From a virus: a stretch of 59,275 bases of DNA. Shown here piece by piece: positions 43 to 47,005 of the stretch; the first letter of the stretch is position 1, and every line of letters begins with the position of its first letter. Under the pieces are notes generated by a model. The model was not told the DNA's origin. It saw nothing but the letters and a program-made list of their open reading frames with translations, and ran no database searches. A program made the position numbers and the translations under genes. Where the stretch lies: positions 1 through 59,275 of the IMG/VR virus record IMGVR_UViG_3300017757_000006. The stretch is one strand, 5' to 3'.

Positions 43-119
43 TGGTGCGCCTGAAAGGATTCGAACCTTTGACCTTTGGTTTCGTAGACCAATACTCTAT
101 CCAGCTGAGCTACAGGCGC
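43..119 (-). tRNA. tRNA-Arg (anticodon ACG)
   Basis: The 77-nt minus-strand sequence folds as a full cloverleaf. It has a 7-bp acceptor stem (GCGCCTG with CAGGCGC), a GCTC/GAGT D stem, an anticodon stem TTGGT/ACCAA with loop CTACGAA, a T arm AAAGG-TTCGAAT-CCTTT, discriminator A and an encoded CCA end. Loop positions 34-36 read ACG, giving arginine (CGN codons). It follows the stop codon of the 127-366 gene by only 7 nt, so the two are probably co-transcribed, and a T run follows the CCA. Confidence 0.96.
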
Positions 120-5074: not shown

Positions 5075-6091
5075 CTAATATGTACGTTTCCACGAATTGA
5101 AAACGGTTTGTGCTTTTAATCCCGAATGGGAGTTACTATGTATAATGCCAAGAATCTCTGCCGGCGTCCTTCCCGACAATATCATGTCATTAATATCTTT
5201 TTCTTTTATTGAAGAAGGCCATAAACACACTGTGTAACCATCTTCAATACACCTTTCAATCTGTCTAGTAATCTCTTGATTTCTAGGCTCGTTGTCTGGT
5301 ACAAGAACAGCTTTATTTTTGAACTGAGGTACACGCAAATCACTTTGGGCAACGGCAATAGCATTGTCTATGAATAAACTATCTAGTGGCCCTTCTGTAA
5401 CATATACGGTACGAGTAGGGTCAAGTTTATTCATTCCAAAGATTTTAGGATACTCTGTATCCAGAATTATTGTAATGTACTTCTGTTTCTCTTCACCAAA
5501 TGATCGCCCTTGATATGCGAATATTTGTCCGTTCTCCTTTCGAAAGGGAATAACCATACGAGGATGGTCTCCGTCCAATGAAGGGAACTTATTTTGGACT
5601 TGAGTATTGGTGAACTCATAAAACTTAGGACTAAAATATATATCATTCCAAGCATCTCTAGGCAACGATCTTTTGGATAAAAACGACACAGCAGGATGAT
5701 TTTTTTCAAGTTCTGCAAAAGTTTTTAGATCACCCAAACGACTCTTGAATTTGGGCGCTTTGAAATCGAACTGTGGTTTGGGAGTTTTGTATGCACCCTT
5801 ATAGGGTGTACCATTAGTACCTTCTTTGTACCGTTCCATTACATATTCTTTGTATAGGTTTGCATCTACAAACTCTATAAGTTTTGCAACGGTTGTACCC
5901 ATAGCACAGTTGTGACATTTATAGAACAAATCATTCTTTGTCCTGTAAACGAAACCTCGTGCCTTGTTCTTTTTCTTGGATGAATCACCACAATAGGGAC
6001 AAGAGAAGTTCCACAAATAGTCTTTCTTCTTTGTGAAGTTTCTGAGTCTTGGGCCTATGAGAGAGACATACTTTGTATCAATATAATTCAT
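5075..6091 (-). CDS. 61: DNA primase (T4 gp61-like)
   Basis: 338 aa. A zinc-binding domain (C31, C34, C59, C62; FSCPYCGDS and YKCHNC) is followed by a TOPRIM catalytic core with E233 in VYVTEGPLDS, D266-N-E268 and KDIND (about 298-302). It makes RNA primers for lagging-strand synthesis together with helicase gp41 (19688-21067). The start 30 residues before the zinc motif fits the family. The -10 element of its promoter ends 6 nt before the ATG, so the transcript would be leaderless. It heads the primase-NrdA-NrdB operon. Confidence 0.92.
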   Translation of the reverse strand: MNYIDTKYVSLIGPRLRNFTKKKDYLWNFSCPYCGDSSKKKNKARGFVYRTKNDLFYKCHNCAMGTTVAKLIEFVDANLYKEYVMERYKEGTNGTPYKGAYKTPKPQFDFKAPKFKSRLGDLKTFAELEKNHPAVSFLSKRSLPRDAWNDIYFSPKFYEFTNTQVQNKFPSLDGDHPRMVIPFRKENGQIFAYQGRSFGEEKQKYITIILDTEYPKIFGMNKLDPTRTVYVTEGPLDSLFIDNAIAVAQSDLRVPQFKNKAVLVPDNEPRNQEITRQIERCIEDGYTVCLWPSSIKEKDINDMILSGRTPAEILGIIHSNSHSGLKAQTVFNSWKRTY

Positions 6092-36682: not shown

Positions 36683-37743
36683 AGTTCTAAGTCACTCGCT
36701 TCTAAGTATAGAGATTTCATCATGGATGTTAGTCTATCTTTATCTAACTCCACATCTAATTCATCAATATATCGCTCTAACACTGTCATAGTATCTTCTG
36801 CATTCTCAACAATCTCATCAGACACATTAGATGCATCCAACTCACTAAAGTCCTCTACAATCTTAACCTCATGGGCTCCAGATTCGGACAACACTTTATC
36901 AACAAACCTATCGAATTGATAGATATCTTTTTTATTGACAACGACTATTCTAACATACTTATCCCTTAATGTCAATACATCAAAGTCAGAAAAATCCTTA
37001 GTACTATCATCATAGTATACTTTTTCAAAAATTGTGTGGGGATTGATGATACGTTCAAGTTCCCTCGTGTTCGTGTCAAACACATGGAATCCTTTTGGAC
37101 AACCGTTATCAGACCAAGTCATTTGATATGTGTTACCAAGATAGAACACCTGTCCATCGTCAGATTTCTTGTGGAAGTGTCCACTGAATACTGTATCGAA
37201 TTTCTTTAAGAATCCTTTATCATATCCACCTTCTGCAAAGTGTCCAGCGTGCATCTCAAACCCATTAATCTCTAAGTGTCCCATAGCAACCTGTGCTTTG
37301 GTATCCTCAATATGTTTCATGGTTTCTGCGTAATTATCAGGACAAATCCAAGGAATAAAACAGATAGGTGTTCCGTCAAATTCTACTGTTGTAGCTGCTG
37401 GGTATGTATGAATGTTATTAAACTTACCATTAATCAACTCATCCAGTGAGTTCACCTCATTGGTATTTTTGTAGAATGTATCGTGATTGCCAACCATCAT
37501 ATGGACAGTGACACCCAAGTCTACAAATCTTTGTAGGAATCGTTCACGGAAATCTTTAGCAATCTTGTATGAGACAAACTTACGTCTGTCCATAACATCC
37601 CCCAAGTGAATAACTGTATCAATACCATTCTCCTCAATATAAGGAAAATATACCTCTTCCCAAAATTTGTAGAAGTAATCGTTGAATGCTAGGTTATCGT
37701 TGCGGGCGCCAAAGTGTGTATCAGTTATTAGCGCTATCTTCAT
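36679..37743 (-). CDS. 47: recombination endonuclease subunit gp47 (SbcD/Mre11-like)
   Basis: 354 aa. Metallophosphoesterase motifs in order: DTHFG, HLGDVMDRR, VGNHDTFY, FSGHFHKKS. It is the nuclease partner of gp46. It overlaps gp55 by 23 nt and is transcribed with it. Confidence 0.94.
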   Translation of the reverse strand: MKIALITDTHFGARNDNLAFNDYFYKFWEEVYFPYIEENGIDTVIHLGDVMDRRKFVSYKIAKDFRERFLQRFVDLGVTVHMMVGNHDTFYKNTNEVNSLDELINGKFNNIHTYPAATTVEFDGTPICFIPWICPDNYAETMKHIEDTKAQVAMGHLEINGFEMHAGHFAEGGYDKGFLKKFDTVFSGHFHKKSDDGQVFYLGNTYQMTWSDNGCPKGFHVFDTNTRELERIINPHTIFEKVYYDDSTKDFSDFDVLTLRDKYVRIVVVNKKDIYQFDRFVDKVLSESGAHEVKIVEDFSELDASNVSDEIVENAEDTMTVLERYIDELDVELDKDRLTSMMKSLYLEASDLEL

Positions 37744-38293
37744 TTATCTTTATCTCTTCACCGTCATCATCATAAAATTTTTCAAGTCCTTTAGGTTCTT
37801 TTTTAACCTTCTTCTTAGGTTTATACACTGCTTCATCTGGTAGGAAGTTCTTCTGTAGATAGTCTACATATCCTGCTTGCGACATGTCTTCACCTTCCAT
37901 CATCAAGTCCACATTCATGTTGGATATGATTTGGTGTTTGACATGTTGTTGTTTTTTCTCTTTAGCAATCCTACGAAGAAATGCATAGTAGATTATTTGA
38001 GTAAAATATGCAAAGGGGTTCTTTGATTTCTCTGGATTGAAGTTGCCACAATACTGTAGACAGTTTTCTATACCATCAGAAATCATCTCATCTCTGTATG
38101 TATAATTAATAAAGTTTGGTCGATAGGATAGGTGATTCGCAATTTTAAGGAAACACTCGCCGATGTAATTGGTTACTGGTGGTTGTGGGTCACCAAGTTC
38201 TTCTGCCTCTTTGCATTTCTCCTTCCACTCTTTCATTGCTTCTAGGAACTGTGCATTGTTGACGTAATGAACACCCTTTTGTTTTTTAGCCAT
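37721..38293 (-). CDS. 55: late sigma factor gp55
   Basis: 190 aa. The region FAYFTQIIYYAFLRRIAKEKKQ (conserved part RRIAKEKKQ) is the region-2-like core of T4 gp55, which directs RNA polymerase to TATAAATA promoters. Many such elements occur in this window, so the factor and its targets are both present. First gene after the promoter at 38338-38365. Confidence 0.92.
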   Translation of the reverse strand: MAKKQKGVHYVNNAQFLEAMKEWKEKCKEAEELGDPQPPVTNYIGECFLKIANHLSYRPNFINYTYRDEMISDGIENCLQYCGNFNPEKSKNPFAYFTQIIYYAFLRRIAKEKKQQHVKHQIISNMNVDLMMEGEDMSQAGYVDYLQKNFLPDEAVYKPKKKVKKEPKGLEKFYDDDGEEIKINEDSANN

Positions 38294-38458: not shown

Positions 38459-38854
38459 CTAATGTATAGTTTTAGATGTTAATGAAGACTCCCATTCATC
38501 AAAGGCTTCTTCTGCTTCAATCTCCATTAGTTCTTCTTCTGTTGGCACCCTAATCTCATCTTCTACATCTCGTAGCATCTTGAGAACACACAACTCATAA
38601 AATCTAGATAATCCCAAAGATGCATCTGCTTTGGTAACAACCATACTTTTGTTAATGCTGTATACTTGTTCTTCAGAAAAATGTATCCATCTTCTTAGAG
38701 ACACAGACTCCTCTAGTCCTAAACTAGTGACTCTAGGTGTAGTGCTGACTAACAAGGGGTTGGTTATTTGTATCATTCCAGACTGTGTATCTTCAACTAA
38801 TCTGCAAACGATTTCTTCGCCACTTGATAATTTCAGAATTATATTTTCTGTCAT
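38459..38854 (-). CDS. second Sm-like protein
   Basis: 131 aa. The N-terminal half (ENIILKLSSGEEIVCRLVED, ITNPLLVS) has the same Sm1-type pattern as the protein at 23426-23725. The C-terminal tail is acidic (VPTEEELMEIEAEEAFDEWE) and absent from that relative. A ring-forming RNA-binding role is suggested by the family only. It overlaps the uvsW end by 4 nt. Confidence 0.6.
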   Translation of the reverse strand: MTENIILKLSSGEEIVCRLVEDTQSGMIQITNPLLVSTTPRVTSLGLEESVSLRRWIHFSEEQVYSINKSMVVTKADASLGLSRFYELCVLKMLRDVEDEIRVPTEEELMEIEAEEAFDEWESSLTSKTIH

Positions 38855-40326
38855 TTGATTTTTATCCTTGTAATCTCATAGTCAAATTCTTCTTCTGCGT
38901 ATATATTTATGCGTTCTTGAAAATGATTTATAGTAAAGTTCCTTTTTGACTTGTATGAAAAGTCATCTGCTATATCGAAGAGGGTAGCGGTATCTTTACT
39001 TTCACTCTTACGCAATCCTCGTCCAATACTCTGCAAGGTACGGACTCTAGATTTGCTAGGACTTGAGAACACGATGTTATGCAAATTCCGAATATTAATA
39101 CCAGTAGAAAAAGTACCATAAGACGCAATAATGATAGCATCTTTCTCTTTCTCTGTAATAGCACGAATATCTTCCCTTGTTTTAGTATCTGTTCCACCAT
39201 AGACATAGAAAACCTTCCTGTCTGTAGAATCAGATATCAACTTATGCAAAACATCTCCATGCTTCTCTACAAACTGAAATAGTATTAGTGTATTACCTTT
39301 TAGGTTCAATGTCAAGTCTTTAATGAAATCATTTCTCTTGGAGTGGGTTACGATGTAGTCCATCTCCTCTTGATAATTCATACCCTTAACAATTTTACAC
39401 TCTTCTTCTGAATATGTGAGAACTATAGATTTAATCTTAAAATCAGATAGTGTTTTTTCATCAATCAACTTTTTGGTTGATATAACTTTATTTAGAGTGC
39501 CGAACAGTCCTTCTAGTACAAGTCTGTGTGTCTGCATCCCATCTAGTGTACCTGTCAATCCAAACCTATACTTACATTGATCTAGTTTGGTTAGAATAGA
39601 AGTCAAGGACTTTGCCTTAAATAAATGCGCTTCATCTCCCACAACCAATCCAAAACTATCAAAGTATGACTTGGGCATTTTGTATAAAGATTGCCATGTA
39701 GATATTACCACAGACTTTGATATCTCTCTATCATGTCCACTGTACACTCTTTGCATATTGTTTTCAGACCATCCGTAGTCAACAAAATCTGAGTACATCT
39801 GTTCAACTAGAGATGTTGTGGGAACAAGAATGAGGATCTTATCATTTGTTTGTTCTTTTATTTTTAGTTTGTAATATCTTACAAGGATGTATATAATTAA
39901 CGACTTACCAGAAGCAGTAGGACTAAGAAGAAGTGCCCTATGTTTTCTGATTGCAAAATCCACGGCGTCAACTTGGTAATCACGAGGCGATATATTCTCG
40001 CCTCTGGAGGTAAGCTTAAGTTGTCGTATGAATCCATCCAGTGTTTCTCTGTCAATTTGTTTTTCATCTTCTAATTCCTCACTTATTTCATATGGTTCTT
40101 CCCACTCATCCAACCATTTTTTCAAATATGATAATAACCCAAGATACAACTCTCCTGTCTGTGGAGAATACAATCGTATTTTTCCATCCCATATGCGATT
40201 TCGGTATGCAGGCATAAATCTAGCGCCCGGCACTTCAAATGTAAAATGGTCTGATAATGAACGAGCAGTAGAAGGTTCAGTACTCACTTCTAAGTAAACC
40301 TCGTTCTTCTTTGTTACCTTTGTCAC
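38851..40326 (-). CDS. uvsW: UvsW helicase
   Basis: 491 aa. Superfamily 2 helicase: Q-like region RDYQVDAV, Walker A SPTASGKS (135-142), VVGDEAHLF (DExH box), GLTGTLDG, and the C-terminal domain with SIGRGLRKS (motif VI). The N-terminal domain, with PGARFMPAYRNRIWDGKIRL, is specific to T4 UvsW. It branch-migrates recombination intermediates and removes R-loops at origins. Lies between uvsY and the Sm-like gene. Confidence 0.93.
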   Translation of the reverse strand: MTKVTKKNEVYLEVSTEPSTARSLSDHFTFEVPGARFMPAYRNRIWDGKIRLYSPQTGELYLGLLSYLKKWLDEWEEPYEISEELEDEKQIDRETLDGFIRQLKLTSRGENISPRDYQVDAVDFAIRKHRALLLSPTASGKSLIIYILVRYYKLKIKEQTNDKILILVPTTSLVEQMYSDFVDYGWSENNMQRVYSGHDREISKSVVISTWQSLYKMPKSYFDSFGLVVGDEAHLFKAKSLTSILTKLDQCKYRFGLTGTLDGMQTHRLVLEGLFGTLNKVISTKKLIDEKTLSDFKIKSIVLTYSEEECKIVKGMNYQEEMDYIVTHSKRNDFIKDLTLNLKGNTLILFQFVEKHGDVLHKLISDSTDRKVFYVYGGTDTKTREDIRAITEKEKDAIIIASYGTFSTGINIRNLHNIVFSSPSKSRVRTLQSIGRGLRKSESKDTATLFDIADDFSYKSKRNFTINHFQERINIYAEEEFDYEITRIKIK

Positions 40327-40755
40327 TTACACGACACCATCCACGAACTTGCGCCACTCAATAGCATTCTTAATTTCCCAATTACGATTGCCGACTTGTT
40401 TTAGAATGCGCTCACAGGTATCTTGACATATCTTGAAATATTCTACTTTTTGTTTTGCTTTGATAAGGTCTTCATCAGACTCCAAGTATATTGGTAAGTC
40501 TGCTTTTAGGATTTTATGGTCGAATGGATTGTCACGATATACGGTTGCGTCAGCTTTACCGCCGTAGTATTCCCACTTCTTGCGATAGAGTACTTTATAC
40601 TCTCCCTCTTTCAACAGAACGAGTTGTCTAAAGTTGTTGTATATGGTGATATATTTTTGGTGAAGAGATGCAGCCCTTAGAGATTCATCTCCAAGTTCTA
40701 TGTAGTCAATCTTCAAATCTTTTTCGGCAGATGCCTGCAATTCATCAAGTGTCAT
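40327..40755 (-). CDS. uvsY: UvsY recombination mediator
   Basis: 142 aa, close to T4 UvsY (137). Typical segments are the N-terminal MTLDELQASAEKDLKID, EGEYKVLYRKKWEYY and NRNWEIKNAIEWRKFVDG. It loads UvsX on gp32-covered ssDNA. It immediately precedes uvsW, as in T4, and follows the structured RNA at 40776-40866, which lies in its transcript leader. Confidence 0.9.
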   Translation of the reverse strand: MTLDELQASAEKDLKIDYIELGDESLRAASLHQKYITIYNNFRQLVLLKEGEYKVLYRKKWEYYGGKADATVYRDNPFDHKILKADLPIYLESDEDLIKAKQKVEYFKICQDTCERILKQVGNRNWEIKNAIEWRKFVDGVV

Positions 40756-40775
40756 AATGTTTCATCCTATAGTGT

Positions 40776-40866
40776 GTGGACAGGGTCAGCAGAACTTACA
40801 GTTCTATATTTTCTCTGATTAGAGAACCAACTTCAGAGTGTCTAAGTCGCATTTCCCCCTGTCCAC
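40776..40866 (-). ncRNA. candidate structured RNA: 10-bp helix closing three hairpins
   Basis: On the minus strand GTGGACAGGG at the 5' end (40866-40857) pairs perfectly with CCCTGTCCAC (40785-40776). Inside are three hairpins: ACTTAGA/TCT(G)AAGT (40847-40830), TTCTCT/AGAGAA (40826-40811) and AGAAC/GTTCT (40805-40791). This is a four-way junction of 91 nt, cloverleaf-like, but not a tRNA: no T-loop consensus, no anticodon loop of 7, no CCA. A TATAAATA late promoter ends 6 nt before the first helix base, so transcription should begin at the helix. It could be a stable small RNA or the uvsY leader. Confidence 0.6.
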
Positions 40867-40871
40867 TGTGA

Positions 40872-40879
40872 TATTTATA
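40872..40879 (-). promoter_or_regulatory. late promoter (TATAAATA) of the structured RNA and uvsY
   Basis: Exact late element on the minus strand. The usual T4 late start distance puts +1 at about 40866, the first base of the long helix. Confidence 0.75.
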
Positions 40880-40884
40880 AGTCT

Positions 40885-41457
40885 TTATACCTTATCTCTT
40901 AAAACTTCCAGTGAATAATAATCATAATTCATAGTGGTTGTTGCAACTAAACCTGTTGCATCTGTGTCTTTAGTATCAAAATTAAGTCCAGATAAAGATG
41001 TAGGATATACATTTTTGAACAAAATTCGCACACTAGGATTATTCTTATTTGTCATAATAGTAAGTACTGCATCACTTGTAAGTGCTGATACTTTATCTGC
41101 ACCACTACGAGTCGCTGCAGCATCTAGAATAGCATCTTCATATTGTTTAGTACTTTCTGGAAATCCAATACCTACCATCCAATTATGTATCTCACGCCAA
41201 TTGTGTAAATTTTCCTGTACATTGAATGATAGTTCTATTGGTTCATAGTTGATGGTATCTCCCATCATAGGAAGTGCAGTGAATCTACTATTCAATACTG
41301 CGTCACCAGAAAATGCAATGCCCGGCAAGTTTGCCTCTGTGATAAAGTATTCAGTGTTTGGAATTTTCAGAATAGAAAAACGGAACTGAGTTGGGCGTGC
41401 CAAATCAAGATTATCTGGTTGTCTATCTAGAGGATTTTGTTTAACTGCCATTGTCAT
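40885..41457 (-). CDS. tail tube-like protein (second gp19-type protein)
   Basis: 190 aa. PTQFRFSILKIPNTEYFITEANLPG (residues about 21-45), ELSFNVQENLHNWREIHNWM and FKNVYPTSLSG fit the phage tail tube fold, as in T4 gp19 and its relatives gp54/gp48. The bona fide gp19 is at 47058-47585, so this may be a tube-initiator, baseplate-junction or tail-terminal variant. Starts at 41457 or, with better Shine-Dalgarno spacing, 41451. It has its own late promoter. Confidence 0.75.
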   Translation of the reverse strand: MTMAVKQNPLDRQPDNLDLARPTQFRFSILKIPNTEYFITEANLPGIAFSGDAVLNSRFTALPMMGDTINYEPIELSFNVQENLHNWREIHNWMVGIGFPESTKQYEDAILDAAATRSGADKVSALTSDAVLTIMTNKNNPSVRILFKNVYPTSLSGLNFDTKDTDATGLVATTTMNYDYYSLEVLRDKV

Positions 41458-45476: not shown

Positions 45477-47005
45477 TATCTATCTCCTGTTTCTGGATCG
45501 TTGTTTGCAAACATACCATCGTCTGCACCCATTTCGTCATCTCCGCCCTCACCTTCATCTTTGATTTGAGCGTCAATGTCACTTATCTCCTCATCAGTCA
45601 TACGAAGAATTTGTTTCTTAACGTACTCTTGTGAGAAGTATGTTCCTACATAAGATTCGATTTGTCCAAGCATATCCAATCTTTCTCTAAGTATTTCTGC
45701 ATTCTTTAACTCTGCAAAGTGTCCGTCTTGTAGGAAGTCGAACTGAATATGTTCTTTGAATGTATCCCACTCTTCTAGTGCAATAACACCTTTGAGTAGA
45801 AGTTGTGTCTTGAGCATATCTGCAAAAAGCATTGTAAACTTCTTACGAAGTCTTTGTACAAACTTAGTAAATTTAAGTTCGTCACGAGTAATGTTATCAG
45901 AACGTCCAATCTGAAATCCTGACTCTTCTGCAAGTCTGGATACTGGTACGTTCAATGAGCGATATAATTTTTTCTGGAAGTATGTGATATCATCAATCTC
46001 ACCAAGGTTTGAACCGCCCGGCAAAGTTGTAATCTCTGTACCTCTACCACCTTCTCTACGAGGCAACCAGAAGTCTTCCAACATTGACATATGATTTCTA
46101 TCATCTCTAATTTCACCAGTTCGTGCATCGTAAACCATTTTGTTTCGATAACGATTCATCACATCTTTTAGATATGATTCTGCTTTCATCTTTGGTAAGT
46201 TACCAACGTCAATATAAAATATACGTCTTTCAGGCGCACGAGAGATACGATAGATAACTAAAGAGTCCTCAATCATACGCAACTGATTGACAGGTTTAAT
46301 TGCTTTGTTTAGGTGGGAAAGGACTGTTCCTTTATGCATATCAACAAGTCCAGAAGGGCAATAACTGATAGAGTCTTCAGTAATCTTTACGCCTTGTGTT
46401 GAACCTTGTTGTGTATCCCAACCTGATTGATTAAACAGATAATAGTTTTTAATATCTGTAACGATATCTATACCTGTCTTTTGATCTTTATCTTTTTTAG
46501 TCTCTCTGACTTTTTTAATCTTACGAGGGTCGATATATCGAACTTCTTTGATGCCCTTGCGAGGGTTCTTAGTGTCGATTACTTTGTGATAGTATACTCT
46601 ACCATCAACATACCAACGTCTAAAGATGTCATGTCCCTTTGCATTAAAATCTAATAGGTGTAGGATTTCATGGAATTCCTCACGAATTTTTGTTTTAATT
46701 TTAGGGGAGACTTTAAGACGATCAAGAGAGATGGATACTGACATATCCCTCTCATCTGAAACGATTGCTTCGTTTACAATATCTTCAATCGCACTATCAC
46801 ACTCTGGTTGTTGTGCAATGTCACGATATCTTTTAATTAATTCAAGTTCACTTTTATCACGACCATCCAAATCTAGGACAGACGCATAATGTCCACCGCC
46901 CGAAATTACATCAAGGGTGCCATCGTCAGAAGCGGGGGCGGTGAATCCATCACCGCCTCCGTCCTGATTTGCTCTTGTAATTTTGAAACCAAAGAGTTCC
47001 GCCAT
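45476..47005 (-). CDS. 20: portal vertex protein (T4 gp20)
   Basis: 509 aa, near the T4 length (524). Recognisable segments include YRDIAQQPECDSAIEDIVNE, VRYIDPRKIKKVRE, YRISRAPERRIFYIDVGNLP and NRYRNKMVYDA. Twelve copies form the DNA entry channel and the base for terminase and neck. A late-promoter variant lies upstream at 47033-47040. Confidence 0.95.
   Translation of the reverse strand: MAELFGFKITRANQDGGGDGFTAPASDDGTLDVISGGGHYASVLDLDGRDKSELELIKRYRDIAQQPECDSAIEDIVNEAIVSDERDMSVSISLDRLKVSPKIKTKIREEFHEILHLLDFNAKGHDIFRRWYVDGRVYYHKVIDTKNPRKGIKEVRYIDPRKIKKVRETKKDKDQKTGIDIVTDIKNYYLFNQSGWDTQQGSTQGVKITEDSISYCPSGLVDMHKGTVLSHLNKAIKPVNQLRMIEDSLVIYRISRAPERRIFYIDVGNLPKMKAESYLKDVMNRYRNKMVYDARTGEIRDDRNHMSMLEDFWLPRREGGRGTEITTLPGGSNLGEIDDITYFQKKLYRSLNVPVSRLAEESGFQIGRSDNITRDELKFTKFVQRLRKKFTMLFADMLKTQLLLKGVIALEEWDTFKEHIQFDFLQDGHFAELKNAEILRERLDMLGQIESYVGTYFSQEYVKKQILRMTDEEISDIDAQIKDEGEGGDDEMGADDGMFANNDPETGDR

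Follow-up and report, generated by a model that had tools for sequence, protein, structure and literature searches.

In T4-type phages, the control of a gene through its mRNA leader has a precedent in the gp32 operator pseudoknot (PMC3014915). The hosts and phages of the Melnitz group are also known to use riboswitches, and the paper on Melnitz reports a glutamine riboswitch and a tmRNA, with uvsY unmentioned (PMC9004378). Here we analyzed a leader from the window, by which we mean the whole 59,275-nucleotide stretch of IMG/VR virus record IMGVR_UViG_3300017757_000006. By sequence comparison, the folded element of about 90 bases at the start of its late uvsY message is real and kept by many ocean phages, and it probably controls that message. 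The Rfam 15 scan returned no family matching the element (best 14.7 bits against a cut-off of 42), and six relatives had no Rfam match on it either. No description was found in the open literature, non-Rfam motifs such as Ocean-VI (PMC2864571) lying outside this comparison. The structured leader RNA family is thus apparently undescribed so far.

The element occupies most of the 129-nt intergenic gap between the end of the tail-tube ORF (40885) and the start of uvsY (40755), in the following surroundings:

40885 to 41457, minus strand: tail-tube gene, preceding the leader (PHROG 45 tail tube, E 4.4e-27)
40327 to 40755, minus strand: uvsY, recombination mediator, first gene 3' of the leader (PHROG 231, E 1.3e-46)
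38851 to 40326, minus strand: uvsW-type DNA helicase, the next gene (PHROG 16 DNA helicase, E 1.6e-108)
37721 to 38293, minus strand: late sigma factor of the gp55 type, further 3' on the same strand (PHROG 234, E 2.8e-62)

A terminator scan of 40600-41000, which includes the interval between P1 and uvsY, found none on the leader's strand, and for this reason we read the leader as the 5' end of the late uvsY mRNA, a message that reads as covering uvsY, uvsW, a small ORF and perhaps gp55.

On the minus strand, 40776-40879 folds at -34.4 kcal/mol against a shuffle mean of -20.6 (z -4.62), and none of 200 shuffles was equally stable. The single-sequence fold reproduces what the sequence-only reading had described, three hairpins enclosed by a perfect 10-bp helix within 91 nt of the gap. 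The plus strand also folds (z -3.8), and the minus strand was chosen because the late promoter and the gene context are both on it. The promoter that this reading placed 6 nt before the helix is indeed there, TATAAATA running from 40879 to 40872 and the helix starting at 40866. Since T4 late promoters span positions -13 to -6 (PMC1524935), 40866 is also the predicted +1, which coincides with the first base of the closing helix P1. The features of the leader are:

40872 to 40879, minus strand: T4-type late promoter TATAAATA, recognized by sequence, with predicted +1 at 40866
40776 to 40866, minus strand: structured leader RNA, whole element, 91 nt (z -4.62; covariance models; four lineages)
40857 to 40866, minus strand: P1 5' strand GUGGACAGGG, starting at the predicted +1 and pairing with 40776-40785
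40776 to 40785, minus strand: P1 3' strand CCCUGUCCAC, pairing with the P1 5' strand
40843 to 40848, minus strand: P2 5' strand GACUUA (NCUUN in the family), pairing with 40793-40798
40839 to 40842, minus strand: unpaired GACA (nnCA in the family), 3' of the P2 5' strand (C in 94% and A in 100% over 80 rows)
40811 to 40826, minus strand: P3 hairpin UUCUCU-AAUC-AGAGAA (99.5% of cells paired; both sides change)
40805 to 40810, minus strand: motif AAUAUA, directly 3' of P3 (first two positions invariant, 5 and 6 at 97-99%)
40793 to 40798, minus strand: P2 3' strand UAAGUU (NAAGN in the family), pairing with the P2 5' strand and supported by covariation
40790 to 40806, minus strand: P4 local hairpin (core AGAAC/GUUCU) of the single-sequence fold, alternative to or pseudoknotted with P2
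40763 to 40768, minus strand: Shine-Dalgarno-like AGGAUG of uvsY, outside the fold (mean unpaired probability 0.87)

Across the TATAAATA sites of the window and of the complete genome of the cultured Methylophilales phage Melnitz (host OM43), structure is strongest in the two uvsY leaders (z -5.4 in the window, -3.1 in Melnitz; -2.1 or weaker in all others). Other late-type promoters of Melnitz include a TATAAATA close to the 5' end of the tmRNA gene (L366, 46000; gene annotated at 45984-46436) and one about 170 nt before gp55, with an unusually long leader (L368, 37465; z -1.9). The accessibility of the ribosome site varies among family members from 0.21 to 0.87, the Shine-Dalgarno of the window being mostly unpaired and that of some relatives less so. 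On visual inspection, the P1 3' strand can pair with the Shine-Dalgarno in some clades, but this pairing was inconsistent and we rejected it.

The search with the window UvsY recovered 80 viral contigs, and TATAAATA followed by the same RNA was present in 78 of the 78 with enough upstream sequence. The element is single-copy in the window and occurs once in the whole Melnitz genome, before uvsY, where the first P1 base lies at about position 129850 of MZ577097. Further searches, based on other UvsY proteins and on DNA patterns, extended the family to four lineages: the main group M, which includes the window, lineage A (P1 GGUGGUGG and similar), lineage B (P1 GGAUGNGG) and lineage C (P1 GAGCAGA; members include L412, L446, L486 and L600-L651). 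Nearly all members carry the element between the tail-tube gene and uvsY, behind a late promoter. P1 starts 3-6 nt past the promoter box in 92 members (of the 77 that have TATAAATA, 55 show a distance of 5 nt), and in the members measured it begins at the predicted +1 or within about 2 nt of it. Most of lineage A (L524-L548) has TATATAAT or TATATAGT before the RNA instead of TATAAATA, which suggests a shifted late-promoter specificity.

Two relatives, L351 and L353, encode a UvsY 94% identical to that of L358, yet have neither promoter nor RNA, and in them uvsY follows the tail-tube stop after about 20 nt. The comparison with L358 shows that promoter and RNA are gained or lost together as one module and, since such close relatives do without it, that the element is dispensable. 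No element was found before uvsY in the cyanophages P-SSM4, S-SSM7, S-SSM4, S-H38 and Sf-FS3, nor in the single-cell virus AG-341-P01, HTVC008M and Mosig. In the loci examined, the element always lies just upstream of the uvsY start, with L446 as the one exception. There, the RNA and its promoter (5808-5893, L594) follow the tail-tube gene and the next ORF is asparagine-synthase-like (SGGIDSTA); no UvsY was found in this 18.3-kb contig, which ends soon after the element.

All lineages share a constant plan, with P1 (7-11 bp), the long-range P2 (NCUUN/NAAGN) and then the hairpin P3. In the window, the partners in P2 are CUUA and, about 45 nt further on, UAAG. P2 is preceded by GGU/ACC or GAU/AUC in most of M and in C; across M, A and B its flanking pair can be A-U, U-A or C-G. 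Among 48 group-M sequences, the P2 core is paired in 99.6% of cells and the varying P2 pair is G-C in 19, U-A in 16 and A-U in 12. The unpaired nnCA is kept after CUUN across lineages, while P3 varies between them in sequence and length, with AAUAUA directly 3' of it. P3 tolerates insertions, since upstream of uvsY in L643-L649 it contains an additional GC-rich stem, about 35 nt long. P4 is present in M and B in several versions (AGAAC/GUUCU, GUAAC/GUUAC, AAAAC/GUUUU and UAUCUAC/GUAGAUA) and was not seen in lineage A. Because its 3' strand overlaps a P2 strand, P2 and P4 must alternate or form a pseudoknot; in group M, the P2-forced and P4-forced folds differ by about 0 to 4 kcal/mol.

This plan departs from the four-way junction proposed by the sequence-only reading. 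Hairpin 1, paired in 47.6% of cells, does not outperform shuffles, and the CUUA-UAAG pairing is found instead; the hairpin is only the minimum-energy choice for a single sequence and is unconserved, so the four-way junction was dropped. Of the three internal hairpins, then, the first does not survive and the third, which is P4, does so in some lineages only.

Covariation was compared with a purpose-written null, a tree-preserving simulation (400 simulations for the 80-row alignment). With 58 rows (M, A and B plus L412, L446 and L486), the best 12 of 1225 column pairs were all proposed pairs; with 80 distinct rows, after lineage C was added, the best 9 of 1225 were again all proposed base pairs. 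The remaining values refer to the 80 rows unless stated otherwise. The P1 pairs rank 1, 3, 7 and 9 of 1225, the score of P1 pair 4 was reached in 0 of 400 simulations, and the family-wise p is 0.04 for P1 pair 6 and 0.048 for P3 pair 4, the covariation of these two helices being partly circular since the script placed the P1 3' and P3 5' strands partly by complementarity. For the varying P2 pair the family-wise p is 0.003, the P2 core having been placed in groups M and B with nothing but a sequence motif and in A and C with looser motifs. The P2 pair flanking CUUN ranks 10th of 1225 without lineage C and 19th with it. Added up over the proposed pairs, the score reaches 782, whereas the null averages 7 and peaks at 75. 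Two alignments were excluded from the models, A4 (a mixed MAFFT alignment of all lineages) because it misaligned P1 and A5 because it misaligned P2. The search for compensatory changes in relatives, by which the sequence-only reading had asked to be judged, thus found them in abundance and beyond the phylogenetic null, and on this comparative evidence the element is a conserved structured RNA.

Covariance models point in the same direction, and those that found the window were built without its sequence. R1, made from 17 group-M sequences and containing no P2 pairs, matches the window (E 1e-8) and lineage C (2e-8 to 2e-4). R2, in which the P2 pairs are included, matches the window at 2e-10 and sampled lineage C members, just before uvsY, at 2e-10 to 1e-3. 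On lineage A it gives E values from 3e-4 to about 1, and it finds neither L360 nor L544 of this lineage, nor any member of lineage B; several lineage A members and all of B were therefore assigned by position, motifs and pairing. R2 had no significant match in cyanophages, HTVC008M, Mosig, the element-lacking relatives and bacterial contigs. A host origin was considered and rejected, since the 16 P4-motif matches in bacterial genomes compare with about 15 expected by chance (an estimate) and fail the model.

Sequence comparison shows the structure, the family and the position at a late promoter. The 5' end at the first P1 base and an action in cis we infer, the latter being the best reading because of the missing terminator and the fixed place just before uvsY. 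The sequence-only reading had itself listed a 5' leader for uvsY among its options, and the location just upstream of this gene, behind the late promoter, agrees with it. With moderate confidence, we suggest that the element is a conserved 5'-terminal cis-acting leader of the late uvsY mRNA, most likely acting as a protein operator and, at the same time, as a seal of the 5' end. Late transcription would start at the first P1 base, so that P1 seals the end, and P2, P3 and the unpaired nnCA and AAUAUA together would make up a recognition core. A phage or host RNA-binding protein could bind this core and set the translation and lifetime of uvsY-uvsW, with P2/P4 exchange or a pseudoknot as the putative moving part in the P4-bearing lineages. 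The regulating protein and the direction of control are hypothetical; the sequence of the element indicates no partner, and candidates are UvsY itself or the phage single-stranded-DNA-binding protein (cf. gp32 on T4 gene 32 mRNA). We favour the combination of operator and 5'-end seal because the gene 32 operator (PMC3014915) offers an analogy. Tentatively, the leader may be bistable, a recombination or single-strand-binding protein or a ligand selecting P2 or P4 and so coupling late uvsY-uvsW, and possibly gp55, to the replication state.

It is also possible, at clearly lower probability than the operator, that the element is only a stabiliser, P1 pairing the triphosphate end and hiding it from pyrophosphohydrolase and 5'-end-dependent nucleases so that the late mRNA lasts longer, with the inner structure doing no more than rigidifying the fold. 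The closeness of P1 to the predicted +1 and the changes of P1 sequence with pairing kept are consistent with it, and 5'-terminal stem-loops stabilise E. coli mRNAs according to works cited in PMC3997798. In L446, moreover, the RNA is kept although a different gene follows it, and a role at the level of the transcript accounts for this more readily than a uvsY-specific operator does. However, a plain hairpin would suffice for this purpose, the conserved CUU, nnCA, AAUAUA and long-range CUUN/NAAG would be left unexplained, and other late leaders in the same phages have no strong structure.

We consider unlikely a metabolite-sensing riboswitch with a P1-P2-P3 aptamer, switching by P2/P4 exchange and controlling the late recombination operon. 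The closed domain with a conserved unpaired core, the small energy difference between the two forced folds in group M and the use of riboswitches in the Melnitz group would suit it, but no Rfam class matches, the downstream genes serve DNA recombination rather than metabolism, no terminator separates P1 from uvsY on the strand, and lineage A has no visible P4.

Less probable still is a free trans-acting late small RNA or a tRNA-like decoy, both raised by the sequence-only reading, since the compact closed fold with its own promoter is set against the lack of a terminator in 40600-41000 and of tRNA features, and against a place just before uvsY in all lineages, L446 being the only other context seen. 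That the element is not a tRNA had been rightly noted: ARAGORN and Rfam find only a tRNA-Arg (acg) at the window end (43-119, minus strand), and they offer no positive evidence for a decoy. A chance fold or single-sequence artefact, to which the unconserved hairpin 1 could point, has a negligible probability, being refuted by covariation, with the family and the model searches also against it.

These results describe a covariation-backed RNA family in widespread marine T4-like phages, including the cultured Melnitz on OM43, tied to one genome place and a late promoter. It would provide, within the same recombination pathway, a second leader that can be tested, together with a precise prediction of the late 5' end.

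Among known systems, the glutamine riboswitch of Melnitz (PMC9004378) is a structured RNA from the same phage group, but in a different place. As with manA, wcaG and PhotoRC-II (PMC2864571), the uvsY leader is a candidate structured RNA that comparative analysis revealed in marine T4-like phages and metagenomes; those RNAs, however, are in Rfam, do not match it, and go with metabolic or photosynthesis genes, whereas the uvsY leader goes with a recombination operon. The gene 32 operator of T4, T2 and RB69 is likewise a structured element in the 5' leader of a T4-type gene for recombination or replication and precedes the ribosome-binding site, and the uvsY leader is also pseudoknot-capable. No sequence resemblance between the two is established, and the uvsY leader differs in serving another gene (uvsY, PHROG 231), in its larger size (about 90 nt) and in being closed by a 5'-terminal helix at a late promoter. 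With the ompA/papA-type 5'-terminal stem-loops, which stabilise bacterial mRNA, it would share a base-paired 5' end at the predicted +1, but its stem encloses a core of several helices and conserved loops that is common to diverse phages.
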